This document shows, piece by piece, positions 45,190-51,094 of a stretch of 64,000 nucleotides of DNA; positions within the stretch are counted from its first letter, which is position 1, and each line of letters opens with the position of its first letter. The notes under the pieces are model-generated. The model was not told where the DNA came from, made no database searches, and was given only the letters and a program-made list of their open reading frames with translations. The position numbers and the translations under genes are program-made. Source of the stretch: Rhodanobacteraceae bacterium. Its GTDB lineage: Bacteria; Pseudomonadota; Gammaproteobacteria; Xanthomonadales; Rhodanobacteraceae. The DNA lies in assembly GCA_021325475.1 (NCBI GenBank), contig JAJPHA010000128.1:1-64000 (forward strand), read 5' to 3'.

Positions 45190-46578
45190 ATGTTCGAGAC
45201 CCTGAGCCAACGCCTGTCCGCCACCGTCGAGCGTCTGCGCGGCCGCGCGCGGCTGACCGAGGCGAACATCCGCGAGTCGTTGCGCGAGGTGCGCATCGCC
45301 CTGCTCGAGGCCGATGTCGCGTTGCCGGTGGTGCAGGCGCTGATCCAGCGCGTGCAGGCGCGCGCGGTGGGGCAGGAAGTGCTGAAGAGCCTCACGCCCG
45401 GCCAGGCGCTGGTCAAGGTGGTGCGCGACGAGCTCACCGCCGTGATGGGCAGCGCCACGAGCGAGCTCAATCTCCACTGCCCGCCACCGGCGGTGGTGCT
45501 GCTCGCCGGCCTGCAGGGTTCCGGCAAGACCACCAGCGTGGCCAAGCTGGCGAAGTTCCTGAAGGAACGCAAGAAGAAGAAAGTGATGGTGGTGAGCTGC
45601 GACGTGTATCGTCCGGCCGCGATCGAGCAGTTGCGCCTGCTCGCCGAACAGGTGGACGTGCCGTGCCATCCGGCGAGCGCCGATCAGGATCCGATCGCGA
45701 TCGCACGGAGCGCGGTCGATGCGGCGCGCAAGCAGTTCGTCGATGTGCTGTTGGTCGACACCGCCGGCCGGCTCGCCATCGATCAGGCGATGATGGACGA
45801 GATCAAGGCGTTGCAGGCCGCGCTCGCGCCGATCGAAACCCTGTTCGTGGTCGATGCCATGACCGGCCAGGACGCGGCGAACACCGCCAAGGCCTTCGCC
45901 GAGGCATTGCCGCTGACCGGCGTGATCCTGACCAAGACCGACGGCGACGCGCGCGGCGGCGCGGCGCTGTCGGTGCGCTACATCACCGGCCGGCCGATCA
46001 AGTTCATCGGCGTCAGCGAAAAGCCGGACGGCCTCGATGCATTCCATCCCGATCGCCTCGCCCAGCGCATCCTCGGCATGGGCGACGTGCTGTCGCTGGT
46101 CGAGCAGGTCGAGCAGAAGGTCGATCGCGAGAAGGCGGCCAAGCTCGCCGAGAAGGTCATCAAGGGCAAGCGCTTCGACATGAACGACATGCGCGACCAG
46201 TTGCAGCAGATGCTCGGCATGGGCGGCCTGTCGTCGCTGATGGACAAGCTGCCGGGCGTGGGCACTCTGCCGGAGAACGTCAAGTCCCGGATCAACGACC
46301 GCGAACTGGTGCGCATGGTGGCGATCATCAATTCCATGACCAAGCAGGAGCGCCGTCATCCCGACCTGCTCAACGGCTCGCGCAAGGCGCGCATCGCCCG
46401 CGGCTCGGGCACGCAGCCGGCGGACGTCAACCGTCTGCTCAAGCAGTACCTGCAGATGGAGAAGATGATGTCGAAGCTCTCCTCCGGCGGCATCAAGGGC
46501 CTGATGCGGCAGATGAGTGCCGCGATGAAGGGCATGGGCGGCGGCGGTCTGCCGCCGGGCGGCCTGGCGGGACGCTGA
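45190..46578 (+). CDS. ffh: Signal recognition particle protein Ffh
   Basis: A 462-aa SRP54 GTPase that targets membrane proteins co-translationally with 4.5S RNA and FtsY. N domain (1-90), G domain with GLQGSGKTTSVAKLA, DTAGRL and TKTDGDARGG, then the Met-rich M domain with the RNA-binding SGxG-like segment (RGSGTQPADVNRLLKQ). Complete. rpsP normally follows; here an exported three-gene module intervenes. Confidence 0.98.
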   Translation: MFETLSQRLSATVERLRGRARLTEANIRESLREVRIALLEADVALPVVQALIQRVQARAVGQEVLKSLTPGQALVKVVRDELTAVMGSATSELNLHCPPPAVVLLAGLQGSGKTTSVAKLAKFLKERKKKKVMVVSCDVYRPAAIEQLRLLAEQVDVPCHPASADQDPIAIARSAVDAARKQFVDVLLVDTAGRLAIDQAMMDEIKALQAALAPIETLFVVDAMTGQDAANTAKAFAEALPLTGVILTKTDGDARGGAALSVRYITGRPIKFIGVSEKPDGLDAFHPDRLAQRILGMGDVLSLVEQVEQKVDREKAAKLAEKVIKGKRFDMNDMRDQLQQMLGMGGLSSLMDKLPGVGTLPENVKSRINDRELVRMVAIINSMTKQERRHPDLLNGSRKARIARGSGTQPADVNRLLKQYLQMEKMMSKLSSGGIKGLMRQMSAAMKGMGGGGLPPGGLAGR

Positions 46579-46776: not shown

Positions 46777-48558
46777 ATGAAACCGTGGATCCGGGCGCTT
46801 TCCATCTTCCTCACGGCCGCCGTGCCGCTGGCGCAGGCGACGGTGCACGATCACCTGTTCAAGGGCAGCTTCGACATACCGGCCGATGCACCGGCGAGTA
46901 GCAACGACGCCGCGCGCTTTCTCACCCAGGCCACCTTCGGCCCCACGTCGGCCGACATCAATTACCTGATGGCGCAGGGCGTCGGCGAATGGATCGACGA
47001 GCAGCTCGCCAAGCCGACCACGCTGGCCGAGCCGACCGTCGAGGCGGTCTTCAACGCGCGCACCAACGGCGGCCAGGGCGTGAACCAGACGCAACGCCTC
47101 AACCGCCTCTACTGGCAGGCGGTATACGCGCCGGATCAACTGCGTCAGCGCATGGCCTATGCGCTCAGCCAGATCTTCGTCGTCTCCGATCAGTCGAGCG
47201 CGATCAACCAGGACGTCGTGCCGATGACGCACTACTGGGATCTCTTGGCCGGCGACGCCTTCGGCTACTACGGCATCTTGCTCAGCGACGTCACCTACAA
47301 CCCGACCATGGGCAAGTACCTCAACGCGTTCCATAACACGAGGTCGTTTTGCAGCGGCGGCAATTGCACCAGTCCCGACGAGAACTATGCGCGCGAGGTG
47401 ATGCAGTTGTTCTCGATCGGCCTGATCCTGCTCAACATGGATCATTCGCCGGTGCTGAACGGCGGCCAGACGATACCGACCTACGACCAGACCGTGATCA
47501 CCCACACGGCCAAGGTGTTCACCGGTTTCACCTATTCGGATGCGCCGACCAACCCGCCCAACTTCAACTTCGGTGGCGTGACCTTCGCCGGCCAGTACAA
47601 CCCGATGGCCTGCTGGGGTACGGAGCTGTTCCCGGCGAGCAGCAACAACATGAAGCACGACATCACCGGCGACGATGGCACGACCAACACGCCGAAGACG
47701 GTGCTCGGCGGCGCGACGATTCCCGCCAACCAGACCTGCGCGCAGGACGTGGCGGACGAGATCGCCATCATCGCCTCGCACCAGAACGTGGCGCCGTTCA
47801 TTTCCCGGCAGTTGATCCAGCGCTTCGTCAGTAGCAATCCGTCGCCGGCGTACATCCAGCGCGTGGCCAGCGTGTTCGACACGCCGGGCAACGATCTCGG
47901 CGACGTGATCAAGGCGATCCTCACCGACAGCGAGGCGCGCAATCCGCCCGCGTTGCCCACGCCCGGCGTCGGCGCTTGCCCGAGCGGCGGCAATTGCGAC
48001 AGCTACGGCAAGCTGCGCGAGCCGGTGCTGCGCCTGACCGCGATGTGGCGCGCCTTCAACGCCCAGGCGCCGGCGCCGGACGCCTACGGCGAGATCGCGA
48101 TGATCGGCAGCGGCGGTTTCCAGGGCGCGCTGGGACAGAACTTTCTCGAATCGCCCACCGTGTTCAATTTCTATCTGCCGGATTACCAGTTGCCGGGCGT
48201 GTTCGCCGACAACAATCTGTATTCGCCGGAATTCCAGATCACCAACGCCTCCAGCACCTACACCACGGCGAACCTGTACGACAGCTTCATCGCCAAGGCG
48301 TATCAGGGCATGACCAATCCGCCGACGAACCGTCCGCTGATCGATCTGTCGTCGCTCACCGCCAATGTCGGCAATCCGTCGGCGATGGTGGCGACGATCA
48401 ACGCCAATATGCTGTACGGCACGATGTCGCCGAGCATGAGCGCACGCCTGACGACGATGCTGACGAGCCTGGCGAGCGCGAATGCGTCGGCGCAGGAACA
48501 GGCCTGGTCGCTGATCTACGTGACCATGCTCTCGCCCGAATACGCCACCCAGCGCTGA
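46777..48558 (+). CDS. DUF1800 exported protein
   Basis: A 593-aa protein with a Sec signal (about 1-20). It matches DUF1800: AARFLTQATFGPT at about 46-58, RQRMAYALSQIFVVS, NYAREVMQLFSIGL, and QLIQRFVSSNPSPAYIQRVASVF. Biochemical function unknown; the family is almost always next to DUF1501. A good GAGGGGTGAG ribosome site precedes the ATG at 46777. The DUF1501 gene follows after 10 bp. Confidence 0.9.
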   Translation: MKPWIRALSIFLTAAVPLAQATVHDHLFKGSFDIPADAPASSNDAARFLTQATFGPTSADINYLMAQGVGEWIDEQLAKPTTLAEPTVEAVFNARTNGGQGVNQTQRLNRLYWQAVYAPDQLRQRMAYALSQIFVVSDQSSAINQDVVPMTHYWDLLAGDAFGYYGILLSDVTYNPTMGKYLNAFHNTRSFCSGGNCTSPDENYAREVMQLFSIGLILLNMDHSPVLNGGQTIPTYDQTVITHTAKVFTGFTYSDAPTNPPNFNFGGVTFAGQYNPMACWGTELFPASSNNMKHDITGDDGTTNTPKTVLGGATIPANQTCAQDVADEIAIIASHQNVAPFISRQLIQRFVSSNPSPAYIQRVASVFDTPGNDLGDVIKAILTDSEARNPPALPTPGVGACPSGGNCDSYGKLREPVLRLTAMWRAFNAQAPAPDAYGEIAMIGSGGFQGALGQNFLESPTVFNFYLPDYQLPGVFADNNLYSPEFQITNASSTYTTANLYDSFIAKAYQGMTNPPTNRPLIDLSSLTANVGNPSAMVATINANMLYGTMSPSMSARLTTMLTSLASANASAQEQAWSLIYVTMLSPEYATQR

Positions 48559-48568
48559 GGAGGCCGCC

Positions 48569-50113
48569 ATGAGTCCCGCACGCAATTCCCGCCGCGATTT
48601 TCTGCGCAAGGTCGCCTGCCTCGCCTGCAGCGGCGGCGCGAGCGCGCTGCTCCCGCAACTGCGCATGATCGGCACGGCGATGGCCGCCGGCCCGCTGTCC
48701 GGCTACAAGGCGCTGGTCTGCATCTACCTCGCCGGCGGCAACGATTCGTGGAACCTGCTGGTGCCCTACGACAGCAACGGCACGAATCTGCGCTACGACG
48801 TCTACATGAACGCGCGCAACGGCGTGTTCAGCGGCTCGAACACCGATGGCCTGGCGCTGGCGCGGCCGTCCCCGGGCGATCCCCAGATCGTCACCGACAC
48901 CAACGACGGCAACAACGCGACGAACCGGTACTTCCTGCATCCGAGCCTCACCAATCTGGCGAGCATCTATCGGTCGAACAAGCTCGCCTTCGCGATCAAC
49001 GTCGGCACGCTGGTCAAACCGATCAACATGGTCGATTACAACCAGAGTGCAAGCAACCGGCCGCCGCAGTTGTTCTCGCACGCCGACCAGACCAACCTCT
49101 GGCACCAGGGCAACACGAGTGCCAACTCGAGCCTCGGCTGGGGCGGGCTGTGTGCCGACGACTTGCAGGCGCAGGGGGCGAATCTCACCACCTCGCCGCA
49201 GTTGTCGCTGTGCGTCTCGGTGGCGGGTTCGAACCGCTTCGAGGTCGGCAACGTGGTCAACAATCCGTATCAGCTTTCCTCGAGCGGCTTGACCAACCTC
49301 GCGGACATGTGCAACAGCGGCTCCTGTTCGGCGACCCGGACCGCGCGCGACAGCGCGCTCAACGATCTGCTCGCCGCCACCTACGCCAGCGATTTCGCCG
49401 CGCAGTACGCCGGCATCTTCGGGCAGGGTCGCGCCTTGTACTCGTTGCTGAGTCCCGACCTCGGCCAGGGCACCTACGCGGTGTCCACGATCTTCCCGAA
49501 CACGACACTCGGCAACCAGCTCAAGATCGTCGCCGAGATGATCAAGCTGTGCAATCCGGTCACGGGCAAGGGCTACGCCTCGCGGCAGATCTTCTTCGTG
49601 CAGCTCGGCGGATTCGATCTGCATTCCGGCGAGATGTCGACCAACGTCAACAGCACCACCGATCACGCCGGCCTGCTGACGCAGCTCGATCAGGCGGTCG
49701 CCGCGTTCTGGACCGAGATGGGTGCGCAGGGCATGCAGAACAACGTCACCGCCTTCACCATGACCGAGTTCGCGCGCACGCTGCAATCGAACGGCGCCGG
49801 TTCCGATCACGCCTGGGGCGGCATCCAGTTCGCGCTGGGCGGCGCGGTCAACGGCGGCGCGCTCTACACCAAGGGTTCGGGCTCGAACGGCAAGGGCATC
49901 GACGGCGCGTTTCCGAATCTGGCCTACGGGTCGATGTCGAACCCGAATCCGAATGCGTTCTCGCGCGGCCAGCTCATTCCGGGCATTGCCGTCGAACAAT
50001 ACGCCGCCACCTTCGCCAAGTGGATGGACGTGACGAACGGCAACCTCAACACGATCTTCCCGAACCTGCCCAACTTCCCCGGCGGCACGCTCGGCTTCCT
50101 GCCGGCGGCCTGA
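48569..50113 (+). CDS. DUF1501 Tat-exported protein
   Basis: A 514-aa protein with a twin-arginine signal (SRRDFLRKVACLACSGG, about 7-23), so it is exported folded. DUF1501 is related to sulfatases/alkaline phosphatases: YLAGGNDSWNLLVPYD opens the fold, LGGFDLHSGE and FTMTEFARTLQSNGAGSDHAWGG carry the conserved Asp/His residues. Function is unknown. It is co-transcribed with DUF1800 and the cytochrome-like gene (5-bp gap). Confidence 0.9.
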   Translation: MSPARNSRRDFLRKVACLACSGGASALLPQLRMIGTAMAAGPLSGYKALVCIYLAGGNDSWNLLVPYDSNGTNLRYDVYMNARNGVFSGSNTDGLALARPSPGDPQIVTDTNDGNNATNRYFLHPSLTNLASIYRSNKLAFAINVGTLVKPINMVDYNQSASNRPPQLFSHADQTNLWHQGNTSANSSLGWGGLCADDLQAQGANLTTSPQLSLCVSVAGSNRFEVGNVVNNPYQLSSSGLTNLADMCNSGSCSATRTARDSALNDLLAATYASDFAAQYAGIFGQGRALYSLLSPDLGQGTYAVSTIFPNTTLGNQLKIVAEMIKLCNPVTGKGYASRQIFFVQLGGFDLHSGEMSTNVNSTTDHAGLLTQLDQAVAAFWTEMGAQGMQNNVTAFTMTEFARTLQSNGAGSDHAWGGIQFALGGAVNGGALYTKGSGSNGKGIDGAFPNLAYGSMSNPNPNAFSRGQLIPGIAVEQYAATFAKWMDVTNGNLNTIFPNLPNFPGGTLGFLPAA

Positions 50114-50118
50114 GCGCC

Positions 50119-50700
50119 ATGCCGCGCGCGGATCGATTGCGTCGCCGGCGTGGCGCGGAGGCGTGCGTGACGCTCACGGCCATCGCCGGCGCCGTGCTCG
50201 GTCTGATCGTGACGCTGCCGGCGGCGAGCACGACGCCGAGCGGTTGCACCAGCATCGCCGACATTCCGCCCACCTACAGCGGCATCCAGTTCGGTGCGGC
50301 GATCGAGGGCATCTTCACCAACTTCAACGGCATGGGAAACGGCTGTACCGACTGCCATACGACGAACGGCGGGACCAACACACCTTCCGGTTACCTCAAC
50401 CTCGATCCGAGCGAAACCTCGCCGTGGACCAATCTCGTCAACGTGGAAAGTCCGATGTATCCGGGCTTGATCTATGTCGTGCCGAATCGCCCCGAGCAAA
50501 GCCTGCTGTTCCAGAAGGTCAATTGCGATGTTCCCGGCGGTGGCGGCCGCATGCCGGATCATGGCTATCCGGATGGCATGACCACGCTCAGCCCCTACCA
50601 GCAGGCATTGATCTACGACTGGATCGCCGAGGGTGCGCCCGCCGGCACGACCGACGGCATCTTCCGCAACGGTTTCGACGTCCGTGGTTTCGCGCAGTAG
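50119..50700 (+). CDS. Exported cytochrome-c-like protein with IFRNGFD tail
   Basis: A 193-aa protein. A basic N-terminus and hydrophobic helix (about 15-37) form a signal or anchor. CTDCH (near 75) is a single CxxCH haem c site, followed by SPMYPGLIYVVPNRPEQSLLFQKV and RMPDHGYP, in which a Met could be the distal ligand, as in planctomycete-type cytochromes. It ends in GIFRNGFDVRGFAQ, a tail of the IFxxGF type seen in secreted Xanthomonadales proteins. It may take or pass electrons for the DUF1501/DUF1800 pair; this is inference. Confidence 0.75.
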   Translation: MPRADRLRRRRGAEACVTLTAIAGAVLGLIVTLPAASTTPSGCTSIADIPPTYSGIQFGAAIEGIFTNFNGMGNGCTDCHTTNGGTNTPSGYLNLDPSETSPWTNLVNVESPMYPGLIYVVPNRPEQSLLFQKVNCDVPGGGGRMPDHGYPDGMTTLSPYQQALIYDWIAEGAPAGTTDGIFRNGFDVRGFAQ

Positions 50701-50836: not shown

Positions 50837-51094
50837 ATGGTCAAGATTCGCCTGTCCCGGGGCGGCGCCAAGGGGCGTCCGTTCTATCACATCGTCGTGG
50901 CCGACCAGCGCAAGGCGCGCGACGGCCGCAAGATCGAGCGTCTGGGTTTCTACAATCCGGTCGCGTCCGGCAAGGAAGTGCGGCTGCAGCTCGACACCGA
51001 GAAGGTGAAGGCGTGGGTCGCCAAGGGCGCGCAGATGACCGACAAGGTGCGCCTGCTGATGAAGGAAGCGAGCAAGCAGGCCCGCGCGGCCTGA
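50837..51094 (+). CDS. rpsP: 30S ribosomal protein S16
   Basis: An 85-aa assembly protein of the 30S body. [23 protein letters not shown] and [12 protein letters not shown] are invariant blocks. ATG at 50837; the ORF-track start eight codons upstream is not family-like. It opens the rpsP-rimM-trmD-rplS operon. Confidence 0.98.

Follow-up and report, generated by a model that had tools for sequence, protein, structure and literature searches.

A three-gene unit between ffh and rpsP

Between ffh and rpsP on contig JAJPHA010000128.1 of a Rhodanobacteraceae bacterium (assembly GCA_021325475.1) lie three genes, which encode exported proteins of the DUF1800 and DUF1501 families and a predicted c-type cytochrome (Table 1). 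This triad was examined in a window of 64,000 nucleotides (positions 1 to 64,000 of the contig, forward strand). All genes of the series ffh, DUF1800, DUF1501, cytochrome and rpsP are on the plus strand and are separated by 198, 10, 5 and 145 bp. The initial annotation had described a tight unit separating two genes that are normally neighbours, and this description stands: the unit is defined by its coordinates, a single strand and the two short inner gaps, and ffh and rpsP are only 101-456 bp apart in 11 of the 15 relatives in which both were seen, which makes an insertion at this site notable. The family identities, the twin-arginine translocation (Tat) signal of DUF1501 and the single CxxCH were equally well assigned (profile scores above the cut-offs and direct reading), as was the exported and co-linear nature of the triad (signal peptides, shared strand, short gaps). 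No promoter or terminator consensus was found within the three-gene unit, so that its operon status rests on spacing and conservation. A PADLOC search found no defence families.

Missing from that annotation is a short motif occurring at two ends of the triad proteins. The sequence TVHDHLFKGSFD stands at the mature N-terminus of DUF1800 and GIFRNGFDVRGFAQ at the C-terminal end of the cytochrome; LFKGSFD in the former and IFRNGFD in the latter are the only two copies in the window. The shared terminal motif can be written [ILV]Fx[DN]GF[ED]. All the evidence presented here on this motif and on the triad is comparative and comes from sequence.

Table 1. Genes and sequence features of the ffh-rpsP locus (coordinates in the window)
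Feature	Position	Strand	Basis
ffh, left flank	45190..46578	+	Open reading frame; orthologues in relatives 60-88% identity
DUF1800 protein, 593 aa, Sec-type signal peptide at about residues 1-22	46777..48558	+	PF08811
DUF1800 N-terminal motif copy LFKGSFD, residues 27-33, directly after the signal peptide	46855..46875	+	Direct reading
DUF1501 protein, 514 aa, Tat signal, alkaline-phosphatase/sulfatase-like fold	48569..50113	+	PF07394, TIGR01409, AlphaFold2 (AF2), Foldseek
One-haem c-type cytochrome, 193 aa, PSCyt1-like	50119..50700	+	PSCyt1 and FoxE matches
Haem-binding CxxCH, cytochrome residues 76-80	50344..50358	+	Direct reading
Cytochrome C-terminal tag IFRNGFD, residues 181-187, six before the stop	50659..50679	+	Direct reading
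rpsP, right flank, first gene of rpsP-rimM-trmD-rplS	50846..51094	+	Open reading frame and synteny

A terminal tag on exported proteins

Genomes were scanned with a DNA pattern for [FILMV]F-x-[DN]-G-F-[DE], the reversed pattern serving as control. The genome that carries the window has 23 sites, of which 19 are at most six residues away from a stop; the control gives one. When the stop is included in the pattern, 2-43 sites per genome are found in 72 genomes of the order Lysobacterales, against a single match of the reversed tag-plus-stop control over all 198 genomes. Outside the order, one or two matches occur in 15 of 364 Gammaproteobacteria, against 11 with control matches, which is the background level; a general occurrence in Gammaproteobacteria was considered and rejected on these counts. 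A scan of named genomes gave mostly Lysobacterales (Dokdonella, Tahibacter, Chiayiivirga, Pseudofulvimonas, Aquimonas, Marinicella and metagenome-assembled genomes, MAGs). Scattered matches in other phyla are as numerous as expected by chance (estimate about 23) and several do not lie in credible genes. The tag is essentially confined to Lysobacterales. Two families of genomes use variants of the GFE form, IFxDRFE in family f10 and IFxDSFE in family f7 (L061, L361-L390), with 80 matches in G105 and 42 in G080 against 0-2 for the control. These variants are found mostly at C-termini, some matches of this looser pattern being internal. Tag calls depend on exact DNA patterns, on genome completeness and on the thresholds adopted (at least two GFE sites or at least five variant sites).

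The proteins bearing the tag belong to unrelated families, including M12- and M14-type metallopeptidases, an M36-like protein, Calx-beta proteins and repeat proteins. A signal-peptide-like start was recognised in 69 of 83 reading frames with the tag and in 483 of 1525 without it; the test was a simple rule applied to long, complete frames from the loci fetched, a tag-enriched set in which only the contrast counts. The C-terminal tag is kept in nearly all triad cytochromes, and a DUF1501 protein of Sedimenticola MAGs is itself tagged, with IFANGFE at its end. At the other end, a looser form of the N-terminal motif is present in 30 of 33 DUF1800 proteins from tag-positive genomes and in none of 10 from tag-negative genomes (p = 1.5e-7, a value that overstates the difference since the sequences are related). 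Together these distributions identify the motif as a terminal tag that exported proteins carry throughout the genome. The neighbourhoods of tagged genes, searched for a reader of the tag, contain no recurring gene family. The motif strings were not found in the literature searched, and no tag model is among the NCBIfam matches of the window and the tagged proteins.

Co-distribution with a second type II secretion system

A search for GspD, the secretin of type II secretion systems (T2SS), showed that nearly every genome has one and that tag-positive genomes have a second, higher-scoring one. In a GspD tree the latter form a clade of their own, class A, apart from the Xps-like and universal class B. 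The presence of GspD as such was rejected as a correlate of the tag, nearly all genomes having the class B protein. Class-A GspD was a candidate tested as a hypothesis and not the outcome of a screen of all genes. In the genome studied here it scores 578 bits with TIGR02517, and a T2SSC (GspC) match is found with E 1.8e-30. At class-A loci gspD is accompanied by gspC, gspE and gspF. Class-A GspD is closest to enteric and XcpQ-type GspD structures, and PDZ domains were matched in all three GspC proteins examined, which come from relatives.

Among related genomes, 69 have both the GFE tag (at least two sites) and class A, 107 have neither, 20 have class A only and 3 the tag only (Fisher p = 4e-31, without correction for kinship). 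The distribution of GspC is nearly the same. Families f7 and f10, with their SFE and RFE variants, account for many of the 20 genomes that have class A only. That these two families break the association was considered and rejected for most of their members, in which the variants are used. When 91 genomes are placed on an Ffh tree, tag and class A are concordant in 83 (both present in 49, both absent in 34); the remaining 8 have class A without the tag, and no genome has the tag without class A.

The tag is thus a candidate for a simple secretion or surface-sorting signal of the class-A system. Tentatively, we propose that [ILV]Fx[DN][GRS]F[ED] may be a linear T2SS recruitment signal in Lysobacterales, read by the PDZ domain of GspC or by the N-domains of class-A GspD, which would route dozens of unrelated exported proteins per genome, including the triad complex. 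The system resembles T2SS with a PDZ-bearing GspC, such as those of Vibrio (EpsC) and Dickeya (OutC), in the PDZ domain of its GspC and in a GspD nearest to the XcpQ and enteric types. Indeed, the PDZ domain of EpsC is required for VesB secretion in Vibrio (PMC12369372). The determinants of known T2SS are, in contrast, structural loops or domains, whereas the candidate here is a linear terminal tag; according to recent papers no conserved or common linear type II signal is known (PMC11981180, PMC12369372, PMC7949064).

Alternatively, the tag could be an ancient end motif, structural or specific to the lineage and not directly connected with the secretion system, and shared ancestry could have placed both in the same clades. 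As this explanation would expect, independent gains and losses are few, and motif and system both occur mainly in a single order, of which they are probably ancestral features. Against it, the losses agree in every informative pair, orthologous DUF1800 proteins are without the motif exactly in those genomes that are without the system, and the tag is found on unrelated protein families, always at a terminus. The most telling loss is nested within the genus of the present genome (G002, G003, G007, G012, G014), where the tags, the N-terminal motif of DUF1800 and the cytochrome have disappeared along with class-A GspD. Common descent by itself is accordingly judged improbable as the source of the pattern.

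Several findings weigh against recruitment by the class-A system. Class A changes only about six times on the tree, so that independent events are few, and independent pairs (three to four in the same direction, none in the opposite one) fall short of significance. Eight class-A genomes on the tree have no recognised tag, three of them from a genus with a divergent class-A GspD, and the three genomes with the tag and no class A (G050, G114, G170) are all fragmented. A GspC match is present in G012 (C271:747-1133) without class-A GspD or tag. The reading frames at class-A loci show C-D-E-F only, pseudopilins not having been looked for. An N-terminal motif copy is not a classical carboxyl-terminal PDZ ligand. 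Finally, most distant DUF1800-DUF1501 pairs have no adjacent cytochrome.

Two of these cases can be described further. In genus g25 (G039, G056, G070, G144, G156), which combines a divergent class-A GspD with no recognised tag, another tag or another use of the system may be involved. The good GspC match of G012 could be a leftover gene, an assembly gap or contamination.

Comparison with surface-sorting signals

The tag might instead be a surface-attachment or processing signal on proteins secreted by the class-A system, read by an enzyme or receptor, its link with the T2SS being indirect and due to the clients. The GlyGly-CTERM/rhombosortase, PEP-CTERM and MYXO-CTERM systems have short C-terminal ends that recur on exported proteins of many unrelated kinds and occur together with a single machine, and the tag shares these properties. 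Moreover, Vibrio GlyGly-CTERM proteins are T2SS substrates that are retained on the surface (PMC13393428). One tagged protein, of M36 type, is matched to its end by the models 'myxosortase-dependent M36' and 'rhombosortase-dependent M36', the tag replacing the usual sorting tail, and another has a 'choice-of-anchor' domain. The reading frame picked as the cytochrome relative in family f7 (L053) carries, in place of the tag, a hydrophobic tail with arginine that resembles known sorting tails. Unlike those signals, however, the tag has neither a membrane helix nor a basic tail, it also occurs at mature N-termini, and its candidate partner is a secretion system and not a protease; no dedicated enzyme was identified. 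Surface sorting alone would also not explain the joint loss with the secretion system. For these reasons we regard this alternative as somewhat unlikely.

The DUF1800 and DUF1501 proteins

The DUF1800 protein matches PF08811 with E 4.9e-77 (260.3 bits, cut-off 26.1). Its AF2 model is mostly helical, with a predicted local distance difference test score (pLDDT) of 80.5, and a fold search in the PDB gave no match at E <= 0.001 (best E 0.32). Neither this protein nor DUF1501 has sequence relatives of note in the PDB.

The DUF1501 protein matches PF07394 with E 2.2e-23 (83.5 bits, cut-off 27), and its Tat signal is above the NCBIfam cut-off of TIGR01409 (21.6 against 16.7 bits). The top Foldseek matches of its AF2 model (pLDDT 79.5) in the PDB are sulfatases, alkaline phosphatases and LtaS, all members of one superfamily; the best has E 2.6e-4 and a probability of 0.98, with a template modelling score (TM-score) of only about 0.3. 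In 32 sequences D59, D350, H352, D413 and H414 are invariant, residues which are of metal-ligand type by their kind and not by mapping onto a template. DUF1501 thus resembles the alkaline phosphatase/sulfatase superfamily in its fold and its invariant Asp and His residues and departs from it in the low TM-scores and in the formylglycine signature C/S-x-P-x-R, which is absent from the 514-residue sequence. The sulfatase-like character proposed in the initial annotation therefore holds for the fold and fails for the signature, so that the protein is not a classical sulfatase.

DUF1800-DUF1501 operon pairs include ones located beside bacterial chitin synthases (PMC5122149). These have the same families in tandem and a Tat signal on DUF1501; the triad differs from them in its additional haem gene and its terminal tag, and no chitin synthase was seen in the flanks read around it.

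Two more DUF1800 genes are present in the same genome. One belongs to a second DUF1800-DUF1501 pair without a cytochrome (G000:C34, L094:5007-8520) and has LFHDGME at its N-terminus; the other is solitary (G000:C130, L095:2752-4215).

The cytochrome and its association with the pair

The third protein has the sequence features expected of a class I c-type cytochrome, a CxxCH and a distal methionine. In an alignment of 17 family members C43, C79, H80, C136 and M145 are invariant and C76 is nearly so; M145, within GRMP, is of the distal type, and the CxxCH at residues 76-80 is the only one. C43 and C136, which lie outside the haem site, could form a disulphide. PSCyt1 (PF07635) matches 16 of the 17 members (best E 8e-6), the protein of the window itself remaining below the Pfam cut-off (14.1 against 22 bits), and there is a resemblance to the haem domain of FoxE (E 1.7e-8). 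With the PSCyt1-type ('planctomycete-specific') cytochromes c it shares a single CxxCH, an MP motif and a DWI..GA end. Unlike them, it is free-standing and paired with DUF1800 and is not fused to DUF1549/DUF1553.

The triad occupies the ffh-rpsP gap in G009, G071 and G133, which represent two genera. In three further cases (G011, G013 and contig C60 of G009) it is the immediate neighbour of ffh, the rpsP side lying outside the sequence covered. In G006 the gap holds the triad and two further large envelope-type genes. Order and spacing are also kept away from this site: G001 has the triad in tandem, and G030, G044 and G106 have it at other positions.

It might be argued that a housekeeping pair and an unrelated cytochrome have come together by chance in a permissive gap. 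The gap does take other insertions (1.2 kb in G001, 3.8 kb in G057 and 2.3 kb in G083), to which the two envelope-type genes of G006 may be added. The order and spacing maintained at the other sites already disfavour this explanation, which is very unlikely.

Two large genes separate the cytochrome from rpsP in some relatives (L064:4378-11836, L073:5580-13098, L071:772-8265), one for a lipoprotein-like protein of 1650 residues and one for a membrane-anchored protein of 800 residues. We presume that they resemble bacterial alpha-2-macroglobulin and penicillin-binding protein 1C, respectively. In G030 a DUF1800-DUF1501 pair is found just downstream of rplS, on the opposite side of the ribosomal cluster (L497:10881-14330).

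Relatives of DUF1501 were found in 96 of 120 related genomes and relatives of the cytochrome in 39 of 120. At all readable triad loci of tag-positive genomes of the same genus the cytochrome gene immediately follows DUF1501; six genomes of this genus (G002, G003, G007, G010, G012, G014) have DUF1800-DUF1501 pairs without it. These comparisons indicate that the DUF1800-DUF1501 pair is a general unit and that the cytochrome is a clade-specific third member.

The initial annotation had linked the pair with a haem protein, suggesting an extracytoplasmic redox complex, and took a cytochrome missing beside most pairs of close relatives as evidence to the contrary. The link stands in the closest clade, where the cytochrome adjoins DUF1501, and does not extend to most of the distant pairs or to the six genomes of the same genus. 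The redox idea is accordingly weakened for the distant pairs and survives in the nearest clade. A dedicated redox complex, with the haem protein working for a DUF1501/DUF1800 enzyme, would fit the tight triad of that clade, the similarity of the cytochrome to PSCyt1 and FoxE and the enzyme-superfamily fold of DUF1501; on the other side are the distant pairs, most of which have no cytochrome beside them. Such a complex is a distinct possibility, short of being probable. It is compatible with recruitment of the triad by the class-A system, since it concerns function and not routing.

A possible pathway and its implications

Whether the triad is one exported assembly, addressed by its tags to the class-A system, seems to us evenly poised on the sequence comparisons. 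Under this scheme, the simplest one for the data, one transcription unit would give rise to an exported DUF1501-DUF1800-cytochrome c assembly, the subunits folding in the periplasm (DUF1501 already before its Tat export) and then associating. The tag would hand this assembly to the class-A system, which would export it or deliver it to the surface, and the presence of a tag on each of two subunits suggests that the complex may leave as a unit. The PDZ domain of GspC could be the tag reader, a weaker proposition. Once outside, DUF1501 might conceivably act on a phosphate or sulfate ester, or be a binding protein with that fold, with DUF1800 as its scaffold and the cytochrome as an added electron-transfer or haem-dependent part.

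The choice of cargo by T2SS is an open question, with no conserved or linear signal known (PMC11981180, PMC12369372), and a linear recruitment signal would matter for that reason. The tag is short, defined by its position, present on dozens of unrelated proteins and co-occurring with one class of T2SS, and is directly testable. If GspC reads it, a matching change is predicted in the GspC of the families that use the RFE (f10) and SFE (f7) variants. Should it be a surface-sorting signal instead, an entire bacterial order would have a sorting system that has apparently not been described, and its secreted or surface proteome could then be read from sequence. For the triad, the tag is the first concrete lead on the destination of DUF1800 and DUF1501 proteins.

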